DNA of 64,000 bases from Streptomyces albogriseolus (lineage in GTDB: Bacteria; Actinomycetota; Actinomycetes; Streptomycetales; Streptomycetaceae), in contig BMVA01000005.1 in the NCBI GenBank assembly GCA_014650475.1, positions 342,725-406,724 of the forward strand, given 5' to 3'. Below are positions 6,190-11,234 of the stretch, piece after piece. The notes under the pieces were generated by a model. That model saw only the letters and a program-made list of their open reading frames with translations, ran no database searches and was not told the origin of the DNA. Every line of letters begins with the position of its first letter. The stretch's first letter is position 1. A program made the position numbers and the translations under genes.

Positions 6190-8319
6190 TCAGGCGTTGC
6201 GCCGCACGCTCCGCAGCACGAAGAAGCCGAAGATCACCAGCACTCCGCCGATGAGGGCCGGCCACAGCTGGGCGCCGGTCTCGGCGAGGCTGCCGCTGCC
6301 GCCCTGGGCCCGGGTGCTGTCCTCGAGCTCGGGGAGGCTGCCGGGCACCTGGGCGGCCTGCGCCGCCTGGCCGCCGTCGTCGTTGCCGCCGTCGCCCGCG
6401 TCCGCGCCGCCCTTGGCGTCGTCCTGACCGCCGGCGTCGGCCGGCTCGGAGACCTTCACGTCCGGCTGGGCCGTGGCCTTGTCGTCCGCGGGCTTCTCGG
6501 TCGCCGCGGGCGGCTCCTGGCCACCGTCCTGGCCTCCCTGGTCACCGCCCTGGTCACCGCCCTGGTCGCCGTCGTCCTGGCCGCCGCCCTGGTTGCCGTC
6601 GTCCTGGCCGCCGTCGTTGCCCTGGCCCGGGTCGTCGGGCGTGGCGGTGGGCTGCTCGGCGCCGTTGTCGCCGCCGTTGCCGTTGTCGCCGCCGTTGTCG
6701 CCGCCGCCGTCGCCGTTGTCGCCACCGCCGTTGTCACCGCCGCCGGCGCCGGCGCCGCAGGTGCGGCCCTCGTTGATGCACGCGACCATCTCGTTCATCA
6801 GGTCTTCCTCGAAGACGTTGATGAAGTCGCCGTGGTCGGTGATCGGCTTGTGCAGCTGCTCGGGGAAGGAGTCCACCGCGAACAGCGGGACCGTCTTGCC
6901 GCCGTCCTCCAGGCTCGGCGCGTCGACGTCGTACACGATGCGCTGGACGAGCTGCGGGATCGGCTGGAAGCCGGCCGGGCAGTTGCCCTCGGCGTCCGTG
7001 AACGCCATGTGCGTACGGTGGTTGGCGCTGTCGATGTTGCGGCCGTCCCAGCAGCTCTGGAAGGCGAACGAGCGGACCACGTCACTGCCCTCGGGGCACA
7101 GCGGGTACTTGTCCTTCAGCTGCCGGTCCTCGAACCCGGTGCAGCTCCAGGAGGCGTTGGCGTTGGCCGGGCCGTTGACGAAGGACTTGGCGTCGCCTGT
7201 GATGATGCGCAGCAGCCGGGGCATGGCCGTGACCTTGCCCTTCGGGTTGCCGACGAAGGTCAGCGTGACGTCCTTCGGGGTGACGATCTCACCGGCGTTG
7301 CCCTCGATGCCGCCGCCCGGGGACTGGGCGTCGCGCTCCTCGGTGCCGTTCTGCAGGCGCAGCACCGGCCAGTAGTAGGAGGACTTGTCGCGCTGGTCCT
7401 CGCAACTGGTCTCCGCCCGCGTCAGCTCGTCGTCGCTGACGAACGCGTTGGTGGCCTGGTTGCCGATGTAGTCGTGGAAGTGGTGGGCGCCGTTGCTCAC
7501 GCCGGGCGCGGCGATGACGTTGTCCGAGTTGAACACGCCGTTCGCGTTGACGCCGCACTCGCTGGAGAAGGTGCCGGTGGAGGCGTTCCCGGACGGCTCG
7601 GGGGTGTTGACGTTGGGCTGGACGCTCTCGATGGAGACGTAGTCGCCCGCGACCGGTCCGTTGCCGGCCTGGCCGCCGTTGCCGCCGCCCTGGTCCTGGC
7701 CGCCCTGGTCCTGGCCGCCCTGCTGATCGCCGCCCTGCTGGTCGCCGCCCTGCTGGTCACCGCTCTGCTGGTCGCCGTTCTGCTGATCGCCGCCCTGCTG
7801 GTCGCCGTTCTGCTGGTCCTGGCCGTCGCCCGCCTGCTCGCCGCCCTCCTCGGGGGCGGGGGCGTTGCCGGAGTCGCGTACCGCGCAGGCGGCGAGGTCG
7901 TCGAGGCCCTGCGGCCGTTCGGCGCCGGCCTTCTCCACGGCGGCACCGATACGGGCCAGCACGGCGGCGCGCTTGTCCTTCAGCGGACCGGCGATGGCGT
8001 TCTCGGCGAAGCCGGGGTCCTGGCGGATCGCGTCGGCCGACTCGCCGAGCCGCTTGTAGGCCTCGGCGATCTGGGCGTCCAGATTGGCGAGTTCCCTGTC
8101 CACCTCCGCGCGGGCCTGGTCGGGCACCTCGGTCAGCTGGGTGGCCACGTCGGGGCAGTCGATGGTGGCGGCGCCCGACAGCACCTGCGCGTCCGTCGTC
8201 CCGCCGTCCGTGGCGGAAGCGTAGACGTTGGCCGCCATCATGCCGCCGCCGCCCAGGATCAAGGCGAAAGCGGCGAGCGTCGCGCGCTGTTTGGGGCGTC
8301 TGCGTGTGTTGCGTGCCAA
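6190..8319 (-). CDS. Cell-wall-anchored DUF1996 protein with LAETG sorting signal
   Basis: 709 residues starting at a TTG codon that follows AGGAGTACTGCC. The N-terminus has a basic stretch and one hydrophobic segment (about residues 12-32), a signal peptide or anchor. A helical region (60-150) leads into a Gln/Asp/Gly-rich low-complexity tract (about 165-210), then a DUF1996 domain (about 225-500) with the hallmark [13 protein letters not shown] second Gly/Asn/Asp-rich linker follows. The end is [16 protein letters not shown], a hydrophobic helix and the tail RSVRRNA. This is the LAXTG signal cleaved by class E sortases of Streptomyces, so the protein should be covalently attached to peptidoglycan. 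The DUF1996 function is unknown; several members are secreted and linked to polysaccharide-active enzymes. Confidence 0.9.
6520..6765. repeat. Low-complexity coding repeats (Gly/Asp/Asn linker)
   Basis: Short degenerate in-phase repeats inside the DUF1996 gene. On the minus strand they encode [10 protein letters not shown]-like units and [10 protein letters not shown]-like units. They form the spacer between the enzymatic domain and the cell-wall sorting signal and probably vary in length between strains. Confidence 0.7.
7675..7825. repeat. 15-bp tandem coding repeat (GDQQG linker)
   Basis: About nine copies of a 15-bp unit, CTGCTGGTCGCCGCC and close variants on the plus strand. In the DUF1996 gene they encode a run of (G/N/S)GDQQ units. 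The exact 15-bp period at DNA level suggests growth by slippage or unequal recombination. Confidence 0.75.
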
Positions 8320-8521: not shown

Positions 8522-9211
8522 TCAGGTGACGTTCACGTCGCTGCACAGGAAGTACGTCTGGTCCGAGTGCGAGGCCTGCCAGATCGTGTAGACGACGTGG
8601 TGGCCGCTCAGGCCGGACGTGCGCACCGGGATCGCGTAGTTGCTGCCCGGGGCGTAGGAGCCGGTGCGGGTCAGCAACTGGAGGTCGTCCCAGCGCAGCC
8701 GCTGGGTCTTGGGGTCGAAGCCCTGCTTGGTGACATAGACGAGGAAGTAGTCCGCGCCATGGCGGGCCTGGTCGTACAGGTTGACGGTGAAGCTGCTCCC
8801 GACGTTCGTGGTCTTCCAGGCGCCGGGCGTGTCCATGGAGCGGTAGCGGCCGTTCTCGGTGTTGCCGCCGCTGCAGAGCGTGCCGTCGGGGACGACCGCG
8901 CGGAAGTTGCCGCCCGAGCCGTCACGGTAGAGGCCGTTCCAGTTCCACATGGCGTTGGTGTTGTCCTGCCAGGCCTGCCAGCACATCGGGTCCTGCTGGG
9001 CCATCGCCGGGTTCTGGAAGTCGCTCCCCCACCGCTGCCAGCAGCCGTAGTTGCGGGACGCGGGGTCCACCACCGAGCCGTGGGCGTGGGCCGTGCCGCT
9101 CCAGGGGACCAGACAGAGCAGCGCGGCGACGACCGTGCTCAGGACGAGCGCGAGCCGGGACCGGCTCCGCATCGGATCACGCGACAATAGAGCATGCGCA
9201 TGCCAACTCAT
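8522..9211 (-). CDS. Secreted lytic polysaccharide monooxygenase, AA10 family
   Basis: 229 residues from the ATG at 9211, which follows GGAAGAGGAAACC; an ATG at 9172 would give a more conventional signal peptide. The signal peptide ends TAHA with mature HGSVVDPASRNYGCW. The exposed N-terminal His is the first copper ligand of the histidine brace. The second His is in QARHGADYFLVYVTKQG, and the Tyr/Phe and Cys pattern (YGCWQRW, PMCWQAW) matches Streptomyces cellulose- or chitin-active AA10 enzymes. It is a single catalytic domain without a binding module. AA10 enzymes oxidatively cleave crystalline polysaccharide using copper and peroxide or oxygen. A perfect CebR operator 64 nt upstream of the start argues for control by cello-oligosaccharides, and so for cellulose as the substrate. 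Confidence 0.95.
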   Translation of the reverse strand: MSWHAHALLSRDPMRSRSRLALVLSTVVAALLCLVPWSGTAHAHGSVVDPASRNYGCWQRWGSDFQNPAMAQQDPMCWQAWQDNTNAMWNWNGLYRDGSGGNFRAVVPDGTLCSGGNTENGRYRSMDTPGAWKTTNVGSSFTVNLYDQARHGADYFLVYVTKQGFDPKTQRLRWDDLQLLTRTGSYAPGSNYAIPVRTSGLSGHHVVYTIWQASHSDQTYFLCSDVNVT

Positions 9212-9274: not shown

Positions 9275-9288
9275 TGGGAGCGCTCCCA
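9275..9288. promoter_or_regulatory. Perfect CebR box upstream of the LPMO gene
   Basis: The 14-bp palindrome TGGGAGCGCTCCCA is identical to the operator consensus of CebR, the LacI-family cellobiose/cellotriose-responsive repressor of Streptomyces. It sits 64-77 nt upstream of the LPMO start, a sensible place to block transcription. CebR itself is not in the window. Confidence 0.88.
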
Positions 9289-9395
9289 GGGCAATGTGCG
9301 CCCGGACGACGGAAGGGGCAACCCTTCGTTCTCGCCACTTCCGTCACCCGGTGGCGTGTTCGACACTTTCGACGACGGCACACGCGGGGCTCCCG

Positions 9396-10031
9396 TCAGA
9401 GCCGGTCGAGGTCCCCCGTCGTACGGCCGAGGCAGACGACCGAGTCGTCCATCGGCACGCCCGCGATCTCCTCGAAGCCCATCCGGTCGTAGAAGGCGCG
9501 GGCGGGCTTGTTGGCGACCGTCATCACCAGGTGCACGGCCGGGACCCCGCGTTCCGCCAGGGCCGCGAGCAGGGTGCGCATCAGCCGGCGCCCGTGGCCC
9601 CGCCCCTGCCACTCGGGCAGCAGGTCGATGTGGAGATGGGCGGGCCAGGCGGCCAGTTCCGGGACGACCATCCGCTCGGGGTGGTGCAGCAGCCAGGCGA
9701 TCGTCTCGTCCGGGGTGGCCGGCGGACCGGACGGCGCGGGATGGCGCCCGGCGACCAGCGGGAGCCACTCGGTGCGGAAGCGCTCGGCGAACCGGGCGGT
9801 GTCGGCGGCGCCCACGACATAGCCGACCGCGCTCCCCCGCCCGTCGTCCAGCACGAAGGCCAGCTCCGGCTCCAGATGGGCATAGGGGGCGGCGAAGGCG
9901 GCGGTGAAGACGGAGGGGTCGGCGTAGTGGGGGCGGCTGTCCTGGCCGTTGTGCGCGGTGCGGACGCAGATCTCGTCGAGGGCCTCGCGGTCCTCGGGGC
10001 GGTACGGACGGACGGCTGGAGACTCGGTCAT
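9396..10031 (-). CDS. GNAT acetyltransferase resembling the O-GlcNAcase C-terminal domain
   Basis: 211 residues from the ATG at 10031. The fold is a GNAT acetyltransferase. The N-terminus VRPYRPEDREALDEICVRTA, the segment PELAFVLDDGRGSAVGYVVG and the ending DSVVCLGR follow the pattern of the acetyltransferase-like domain at the C-terminus of human O-GlcNAcase and its stand-alone bacterial homologues. Unlike the human pseudo-enzyme, the acetyl-CoA pyrophosphate loop QGRGHGRRL is intact, so it is probably active. The substrate is unknown. A perfect CebR box lies 21-34 nt upstream of the start, so it should be expressed when cello-oligosaccharides are present. It is followed by the LPMO gene on the same strand, which has its own box. 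Confidence 0.85.
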   Translation of the reverse strand: MTESPAVRPYRPEDREALDEICVRTAHNGQDSRPHYADPSVFTAAFAAPYAHLEPELAFVLDDGRGSAVGYVVGAADTARFAERFRTEWLPLVAGRHPAPSGPPATPDETIAWLLHHPERMVVPELAAWPAHLHIDLLPEWQGRGHGRRLMRTLLAALAERGVPAVHLVMTVANKPARAFYDRMGFEEIAGVPMDDSVVCLGRTTGDLDRL

Positions 10032-10051
10032 GACCGGCATCCTGCACCGCA

Positions 10052-10065
10052 TGGGAGCGCTCCCA
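10052..10065. promoter_or_regulatory. Second perfect CebR box, upstream of the GNAT gene
   Basis: A second exact TGGGAGCGCTCCCA, 21-34 nt upstream of the GNAT start codon and 87 nt before the divergent YihY gene. It could control either or both. Two perfect copies within 800 bp are very unlikely by chance. Confidence 0.85.
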
Positions 10066-10151
10066 CAAGGGGGGGTGCGACCGGTTTCGCGCCCGGCCGT
10101 GTCACCCGCGCACCCGTGCGTGACGTGGCGGACCGGGGGCACCCGGTGGCC

Positions 10152-11234
10152 ATGAAGCTGCACATCCCGGGCCGGGACGACCGGTCGGCACATCAGAAAG
10201 CACCGGACGAGTCCGCATCCTCGCGGCGGGCCGGGCAGCCGGCTGAGGAGCCGGGCCCGAGCGACGCGGTGGAACATGCGGCGCCGGACAGTCCGGCCAA
10301 GCTGCCCAAGGGCGCGTGGAAGGCGGCACTGAAGGGCAGTGTGCGCGAGTTCAAGGACGACGAGCTCACCGACCGCGCCGCCGCCCTGACGTACTACGGG
10401 ATGCTGGCGCTGTTCCCGGCGCTGCTGGCCCTGGTGTCGATCCTCGGCCTCACCGGCAGGTCGACCACGGACAAGGTGCTGGAGAACGTCCAGGAGCTCA
10501 CCGCCCCCGGCGCGGCGCGGGACATCATCACGCAGGCGGTCCAGCAGCTGCAGGGCAACGCGGGCGTCGGGTCGCTGGTGGCGATCGTCGGTCTGCTGCT
10601 CGCCATCTGGTCGGCCTCCGGCTACGTGGCGGCGTTCATGCGCTCGGCGAACGCGGTGTACGACATGCCCGAGGGACGCCCGGTGTGGAAGGTGCTGCCG
10701 GTGCGGGTGGGCGTGACGGTGGCGCTGCTGCTGATGGCCGGGATCAGCGCGCTGATCGTGGTCTTCACCGGCGGGCTGGCCCGTCGGGCCGGTGATCTGC
10801 TGGGGCTGGGCGACACGGCCCTGACGGTCTGGTCGATCGCCAAGTGGCCGGTCTTGGTGCTGCTGGTGACGATCATGATCGCGCTGCTGTACTGGGCAGC
10901 CCCGAACGCCAAGGTGAAGGGGTTCCGCTGGATCACCCCGGGCAGCTTCCTGGCGCTGCTGATCTGGCTGGCCGCCTCCGCCGGATTCGCCCTCTACGTC
11001 GCCAACTTCGGCTCCTACAACAAGACGTACGGCACGATGGCCGGTGTCATCATCTTCCTGATCTGGCTGTGGATCACCAATCTGGCGATCCTGCTGGGGC
11101 TGGAGTTCGACGCGGAGATCGCCCGGCAGTGGGCCATCGCCGGCGGTCATCCGCCGGAGGAGGAGCCGTACACGCAGCCGCGTGACACCCGCGCCTGGGA
11201 CGAGCAGGACCGGCAGAAGATGGACGGCGCCTGA
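10152..11234 (+). CDS. YihY/BrkB family inner-membrane protein
   Basis: 360 residues from the ATG at 10152; a GTG two codons upstream is possible and neither has a strong ribosome binding site. After a hydrophilic, charged N-terminal 55 residues comes the family core: ELTDRAAALTYYGMLALFPA. Six hydrophobic segments follow, including the conserved YWAAPNAKVKGFRWITPGSF and SYNKTYGTMAGVIIFLIWLW. This is the YihY/virulence factor BrkB family (once mis-annotated as RNase BN), a six-helix membrane protein of uncertain transport role. The tail is acidic and cytoplasmic. The gene shares an intergenic region with the CebR-boxed GNAT gene, so cello-oligosaccharide control is possible but unproven. Confidence 0.9.
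   Translation: MKLHIPGRDDRSAHQKAPDESASSRRAGQPAEEPGPSDAVEHAAPDSPAKLPKGAWKAALKGSVREFKDDELTDRAAALTYYGMLALFPALLALVSILGLTGRSTTDKVLENVQELTAPGAARDIITQAVQQLQGNAGVGSLVAIVGLLLAIWSASGYVAAFMRSANAVYDMPEGRPVWKVLPVRVGVTVALLLMAGISALIVVFTGGLARRAGDLLGLGDTALTVWSIAKWPVLVLLVTIMIALLYWAAPNAKVKGFRWITPGSFLALLIWLAASAGFALYVANFGSYNKTYGTMAGVIIFLIWLWITNLAILLGLEFDAEIARQWAIAGGHPPEEEPYTQPRDTRAWDEQDRQKMDGA

Follow-up and report, generated by a model that had tools for sequence, protein, structure and literature searches.

Two genes lie in tandem on the minus strand of the window (the whole stretch of 64,000 nucleotides of Streptomyces albogriseolus DNA that was analyzed). The upstream gene, at 9396..10031, encodes a GNAT acetyltransferase of the SsAT/OgpAT family (PF00583), and the gene downstream of it, at 8522..9211, encodes a single-domain AA10 LPMO (PF03067, E 4.6e-48) in which the PF03067 match runs from residue 44, the His following AHA, with a signal peptide and its cleavage site recognized by reading. 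On the other side of GNAT a divergent YihY/BrkB gene (PF03631) occupies the plus strand; its open reading frame was read to 11234 and its start was taken as the ATG at 10152. Exact copies of the 14-bp palindrome TGGGAGCGCTCCCA are present at 10052..10065 and at 9275..9288, and we read them as the predicted CebR operators (minus strand) of the GNAT gene and the LPMO gene, respectively. They are 777 bp apart with the GNAT gene between them; the GNAT start comes 20 nt past its own box, the LPMO start 63 nt past its own, and the YihY start is 86 nt from the 10052 box. A first-pass annotation of this DNA had described two perfect palindromes at 9275 and 10052, both of which are exact in our scan, and its distances of 64 and 21 nt take in the start codon's first base, the gaps themselves being 63 and 20 nt.

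No further TGGGAGCGCTCCCA site at ≤2 mismatches occurs anywhere else in the 64-kb window. When the window is shuffled there are on average 0.68 matches at ≤2 mismatches, and 12 of 100 shuffles have two or more; such pairs are therefore not rare, and it is the exactness of both copies that carries weight, since exact copies are expected at only 0.0008 per 64 kb and about 0.10 per 8,066,392-base genome. The genome-wide scan for the 14-mer that had been proposed with the annotation gave 10 exact and 6 one-mismatch sites, and a reversed control pattern gave 2 sites at ≤1 mismatch and no exact site in the same genome. Across 246 genomes of the genus the corresponding exact counts are 1373 for the operator and 2 for the reversed control.

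Nine of the 10 exact sites in this genome are in upstream regions of genes for cellulases, LPMOs, CebE, an esterase or the GNAT. They precede GH12-CBM2, GH9 and GH6 genes, a second AA10 LPMO gene, cebE, a GDSL-CBM2 esterase gene and the LPMO and GNAT genes of the window, and one lies between divergent GH6-CBM2 and GH48-CBM2 genes. The cebE box has a LacI-family gene on its opposite side; this gene (on contig C8) adjoins sugar ABC transporter genes and a GH1 β-glucosidase gene, in the order cebR-cebEFG-bglC, and the names cebR and cebE are assigned here from that gene order next to the GH1 gene, the cebE product having no NCBIfam match. The GH1 gene has a one-mismatch box that ends at its ATG. 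Among the other one-mismatch sites, three are inside predicted genes and one is about 280 nt from the closest predicted start. A further one, TGGGAGCGCTTCCA, has the same form as the box of the GH1 gene and is found 48 nt before a GFO/IDH/MocA oxidoreductase gene (L024:2990-3003; G000 C2:369089), which is a possible additional member of the regulon. There is also an exact box between convergent acetyl xylan esterase and aconitase genes (L019:3042-3055; G000 C4:380141-380154), and its last A can start the ATG of a minus-strand frame (MSAADRNPSPG...), as does the one-mismatch box at the GH1 gene; no clear gene was recognized at this place.

Comparison with the CebR regulons described in S. scabies and SirexAA-E is informative in understanding these sites. 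Table 1 of PMC5332605 gives an identical operator at S. scabies cellulose genes. In PMC4890002 the cebE and bglC sites are reported to be shifted by CebR in gels, an effect inhibited by cellobiose and cellotriose, and PMC4898821 describes the deletion of cebR as well as CebR sites at genes for single-domain AA10 enzymes. The regulons are alike in the 14-bp operator, in the cebR-like gene beside transporter and β-glucosidase genes and in the target classes GH6, GH9, GH12, GH48 and AA10 named in these papers, and the first-pass identification of the palindrome as the CebR operator agrees both with the published site (PMC5332605, PMC4890002, PMC4898821) and with the LacI-family gene, transporter and boxed GH1 gene in this genome. 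They differ at the acetyltransferase, which is absent from the S. scabies genes in Table 1 of PMC5332605. The LPMO operator is an ordinary one, of the kind described for single-domain AA10 genes in PMC4898821.

Of the 246 genomes sampled in the genus, 97 have a GNAT orthologue (E ≤ 1e-30), and the surrounding region was read in each of them. The best site between -200 and +30 of the GNAT start is an exact copy in 42 orthologues and differs at one base in 12 and at two bases in 11. Thus 65 of the 97 orthologues have a box with ≤2 mismatches, in all of them within 80 nt upstream and in 41 of them at -32 or -33. The remaining 32 show no box, and because a few of these are incomplete or abut a contig end (L059, L120 and L125 among others) 65 is a lower bound. 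The 65 box-bearing loci fall into 61 flank clusters at 70% identity; when cluster representatives are compared with one another, identity is 93% in the box and 37% in the flanks. In a named set made up of the best 80 of 554 relatives, which overlaps the 97, the box is found in 56 and is exact in 44, and the same set includes two Actinacidiphila loci, one of them with the box. This conservation supports the earlier suggestion that the GNAT gene joins a cellulose-use regulon, and we consider it very likely that the gene is a direct and conserved member of the CebR (cello-oligosaccharide) regulon that stands next to an LPMO gene, each with its own operator. Binding of CebR at this site and induction of the gene are what we infer from the boxes and their conservation.

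The box has a patchy distribution within the genus. A tree was made from 92 of the 97 proteins together with five outgroup rows (bootstrap not settled); it requires 12 changes of box presence, where shuffling gives a mean of 28. We take the box to be an old feature of the main clade that was probably lost several times. The GNAT gene of S. scabiei 87.22 (72% identity) has no box, its best match having 5 mismatches, and CAGGAT is kept before the start; the S. violaceoruber gene has a 3-mismatch version of the box. The 12 loci outside the window family have no box (best 4 mismatches). Of the five relatives closest to SsAT in this set, four (L141, L142, L136 and L134) likewise lack the box, and the remaining one, L059, sits at the end of a contig. 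An N-terminal extension of SsAT that hides a CebR box is not supported, as the testable closest SsAT relatives are without one.

Presence of the GNAT gene is associated with GH48 and with a larger number of exact boxes elsewhere in the genome. GH48 is present in 82 of 97 genomes with the gene versus 70 of 149 without it (Fisher 2e-9, a value that ignores kinship), and the median number of exact boxes besides the GNAT gene's own is 8 versus 3, a comparison that likewise ignores kinship. Within the genomes that have the GNAT gene, the box itself is not linked to GH48, which accompanies 55 of 65 boxed and 27 of 32 box-less genes (p = 1).

The position of the 10052 box allows it to be assigned to other genes, and the first-pass annotation had suggested that YihY might belong to the regulon as well. 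Among relatives the box remains with GNAT where YihY sits elsewhere. YihY homologues were sought in 30 hand-picked genomes of the 149 that have no GNAT gene and were found in 23; of the 30 loci taken, only one has a box (≤2 mismatches, ≤400 nt; the starts of distant homologues are extrapolated), and that box is an LPMO's, placed between the divergent LPMO gene and YihY in a locus that has no GNAT. We thus reject membership of YihY in the regulon. Repressors of the LacI type are able to loop DNA, and the two operators stand on either side of GNAT, so the 10052 box might instead be a second, looping operator for the LPMO, with GNAT as a bystander. The LPMO gene adjoins GNAT in 9 of the 97 loci, and in all nine of these tandem loci it has a box of its own (7 exact, 2 with one mismatch). 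No LPMO gene adjoins GNAT in 57 of the 65 boxed loci, within fetched stretches that reach at most 5 kb to either side, and 56 of those 57 have no second box at ≤1 mismatch there, while the LPMO retains its own box in the GNAT-less locus described above. Looping is not needed as a reason for the second box, because GNAT boxes stand alone in other loci, and it is very improbable that the 10052 box serves the LPMO or YihY with GNAT uninvolved.

The identity of the regulator is a separate question, since a LacI-family paralogue might read the operator in place of CebR or together with it, in which case GNAT would answer to another sugar signal. This genome does encode such a paralogue (L156; G000 C1:198084-199088), which is 57% identical to CebR and shares with it the stretch GRGTVSRVIN, which we take to be the recognition helix; the gene adjoins the GH12 gene and its box. 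The upstream region of that GH12 gene also holds CGGGAGCGCTCCCG variants. However, the identical box is found upstream of cebE beside cebR in this same genome, and CebR binding to the operator and the effect of a cebR deletion have been published for other Streptomyces (PMC4890002, PMC4898821), so we regard control by the paralogue as unlikely and continue to favor CebR as the regulator of GNAT.

The GNAT box appears to be built into a promoter. A predicted -35 hexamer, TTGTGG (10063..10068, minus strand), overlaps the operator, and a predicted -10 hexamer, CAGGAT (10039..10044, minus strand), is 7 nt before the ATG; the role of TTGTGG as a -35 element is inferred, and CAGGAT could alternatively be a Shine-Dalgarno site. 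In the 61 flank clusters the bases TTG directly 5' of the box are conserved at 92-97% each. In 32 of the 65 boxed loci the spacer from TTGNNN to a CAGGAT-like hexamer measures 17 bp, and in 19 more it measures 18 bp (51 together); 7 loci are without the TTG and 7 without a hexamer at ≤2 mismatches. A hexamer with ≤1 mismatch that ends 6-7 nt before an in-frame start is present at 48 of 62 boxed loci (three others had no start found) and at 16 of 29 box-less loci (two others had no start and one was at a contig end), as compared with 2.3% and 1.2%, respectively, in shuffled upstream sequence. A spacing of 17-18 bp is typical of a sigma-70-type promoter, and the transcript start then falls on the start codon; this arrangement predicts a leaderless GNAT mRNA, with the operator in the promoter spacer. 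The AGGA of CAGGAT could instead mark a ribosome-binding site, but because the distance between TTG and hexamer is fixed we favor the promoter reading. The GNAT promoter is thus probably a repressed and leaderless one, the leaderless part being somewhat less sure than membership in the regulon. In the mechanism that we propose, CebR would occupy the palindrome between the -35-like TTGTGG and the -10-like CAGGAT and block the promoter, imported cellobiose or cellotriose would free CebR from the operator, and a leaderless GNAT mRNA would then be made along with those for the cellulases, LPMOs, Ceb transporter and BglC. That mRNA would encode an acetyl-CoA enzyme of the SsAT/OgpAT family whose closed tunnel would admit a small acceptor.

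The GNAT protein has no match above the cut-off in NCBIfam, and its far weaker matches, well below cut-off, are to streptothricin and arsinothricin acetyltransferase models. In a phmmer search it matches 4bmh (SsAT) at E 3e-94, 3zj0 (OgpAT) at 1e-32 and then O-GlcNAcase domains. The alignment with 4bmh covers residues 2-207 with one single-residue gap and includes the 55-residue insertion between β3 and β4. A profile of 14 orthologues reaches the 916-residue O-GlcNAcase 5m7r, presumably the human enzyme, at 1.7e-21 over residues 715-915. The residues given for catalysis and acetyl-CoA binding in SsAT (PMC3919268) correspond in the 4bmh alignment to Y50, H132, H134, D136, the P-loop, N174, F180 and Y181 here. 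These were followed through 92 of the 97 orthologues (five rows were too short, two of them with an internal stop codon): H132, H134, D136, G145 and G147 are kept in 92/92 and Y50, Q142, N174, F180 and Y181 in 91/92, and P-loop positions 143, 144 and 146 vary. GNAT is an orthologue of SsAT and, as its residues indicate, a catalytically complete and probably active acetyl-CoA enzyme.

The known relatives are like the window protein in sequence and differ in setting. SsAT of S. sviceus (PDB 4bmh) has the same P-loop, His pair, Asp, Tyr and Asn, and a tunnel-like acceptor site that fits a small polar molecule, the acceptor being given as unknown (PMC3919268); in contrast to the boxed window gene, four of its five closest relatives have no box. 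OgpAT and the pseudo-acetyltransferase domain of human O-GlcNAcase are homologous to the window GNAT over nearly the whole domain. The OgpAT gene directly follows a GH84 gene, and the human domain, which is part of one protein with GH84, shows no binding of acetyl-CoA (PMC3814719), whereas the window gene stands alone under a cellulose operator and its product retains the catalytic residues. A distinct fungal GNAT region is fused to a GH3 hexosaminidase and has glucosamine acetyltransferase activity (PMC4680927).

For the GNAT acceptor the likeliest candidate is a small amine, derived from a sugar or otherwise, that is encountered while polysaccharides are broken down, although this is much less sure than membership in the regulon. 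The relatives that are next to or fused with GH84 point towards glycan chemistry, and they, like the fungal GNAT-GH3 fusion, are leads to a sugar-derived acceptor and not tests of one. Gene neighbors give no consistent answer within the genus, where they are too variable to guide a choice of substrate. A GNAT that is a generic detoxifier, acetylating an antibiotic or arylamine and having no sugar-related substrate, is compatible with regulon membership, cellulose then marking a competitive or plant-rich niche. The SsAT pocket can hold serotonin in superposition (PMC3919268) and the weak streptothricin and arsinothricin matches are in this direction, but GNAT relatives adjoin or are fused to GH84 hexosaminidases (PMC3814719), even though no such neighbor is present in the window genome, where the only GH84 match is not near GNAT. 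We think such a detoxifier a real possibility, if a rather doubtful one, and still prefer an acceptor encountered in polysaccharide breakdown. Taken jointly, the data may also be read as follows: the bacterial O-GlcNAcase-AT-like relatives would be glycan-catabolism enzymes that acetylate a sugar-derived amine, Streptomyces would have recruited one of them into the cellulose regulon by means of an operator in a leaderless promoter, and some lineages, S. scabiei included, would later have released it. This whole sequence of events is speculative, and we would not expect every part of it to hold.

As had been supposed when the operators were first pointed out, a GNAT member of the CebR regulon seems not to have been described: none was found among the open-licence papers listed, some of them judged by title, though supplementary tables (e.g., S4 Table of PMC4898821) may include the gene as a predicted target. 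The word "acetyltransferase" is absent from the main texts of PMC4898821, PMC8914351 and PMC12527672, and "acetyl" is absent from PMC4890002. The promoter layout, the absence of the box from several clades and from S. scabiei, and the orthology with SsAT are additions to what the first-pass annotation contained. SsAT and OgpAT were reportedly crystallized in order to understand human O-GlcNAcase. The operator suggests when the Streptomyces protein would be made, namely during growth on cello-oligosaccharides, and its conservation thus offers this orphan family a physiological setting and points to culture conditions under which the GNAT substrate might be sought. It would also add a non-hydrolase enzyme with no evident export signal to a regulon whose descriptions center on secreted cellulases and the uptake of sugars, and S. 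scabiei, a main CebR model, is without the box at its GNAT gene.

Several features of the surrounding genes deserve mention. One of the 12 out-of-family loci, an actinobacterial one (L191; G275 C1:4366657-4379211) that encodes a GNAT homologue with 34% identity, adjoins GH84, SIS, BadF-type kinase and GntR/UTRA genes and so resembles the OgpAT-GH84 arrangement of Oceanicola. By eye, the other 11 have no GH84/SIS/BadF/GntR set among the open reading frames that a script adjusted for high G+C predicts up to 4.5 kb away, nor was the GH84 neighborhood of these relatives found in the window genome. At 16 loci (including L072, L074 and L107) a gene for a Peripla_BP_2-like protein, below the Pfam cut-off and with no obvious signal peptide, lies directly downstream of GNAT on the same strand with a gap of -3 to 144 nt, and it is a possible operon partner. 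In the window itself, a DUF1996 protein with Gln/Gly/Asp-rich repeats is encoded downstream of the LPMO gene (6190-8319) and has, by reading, an LAETG-like sortase motif and a C-terminal anchor; members of the DUF1996 family are near GNAT in 19 of the 97 loci.
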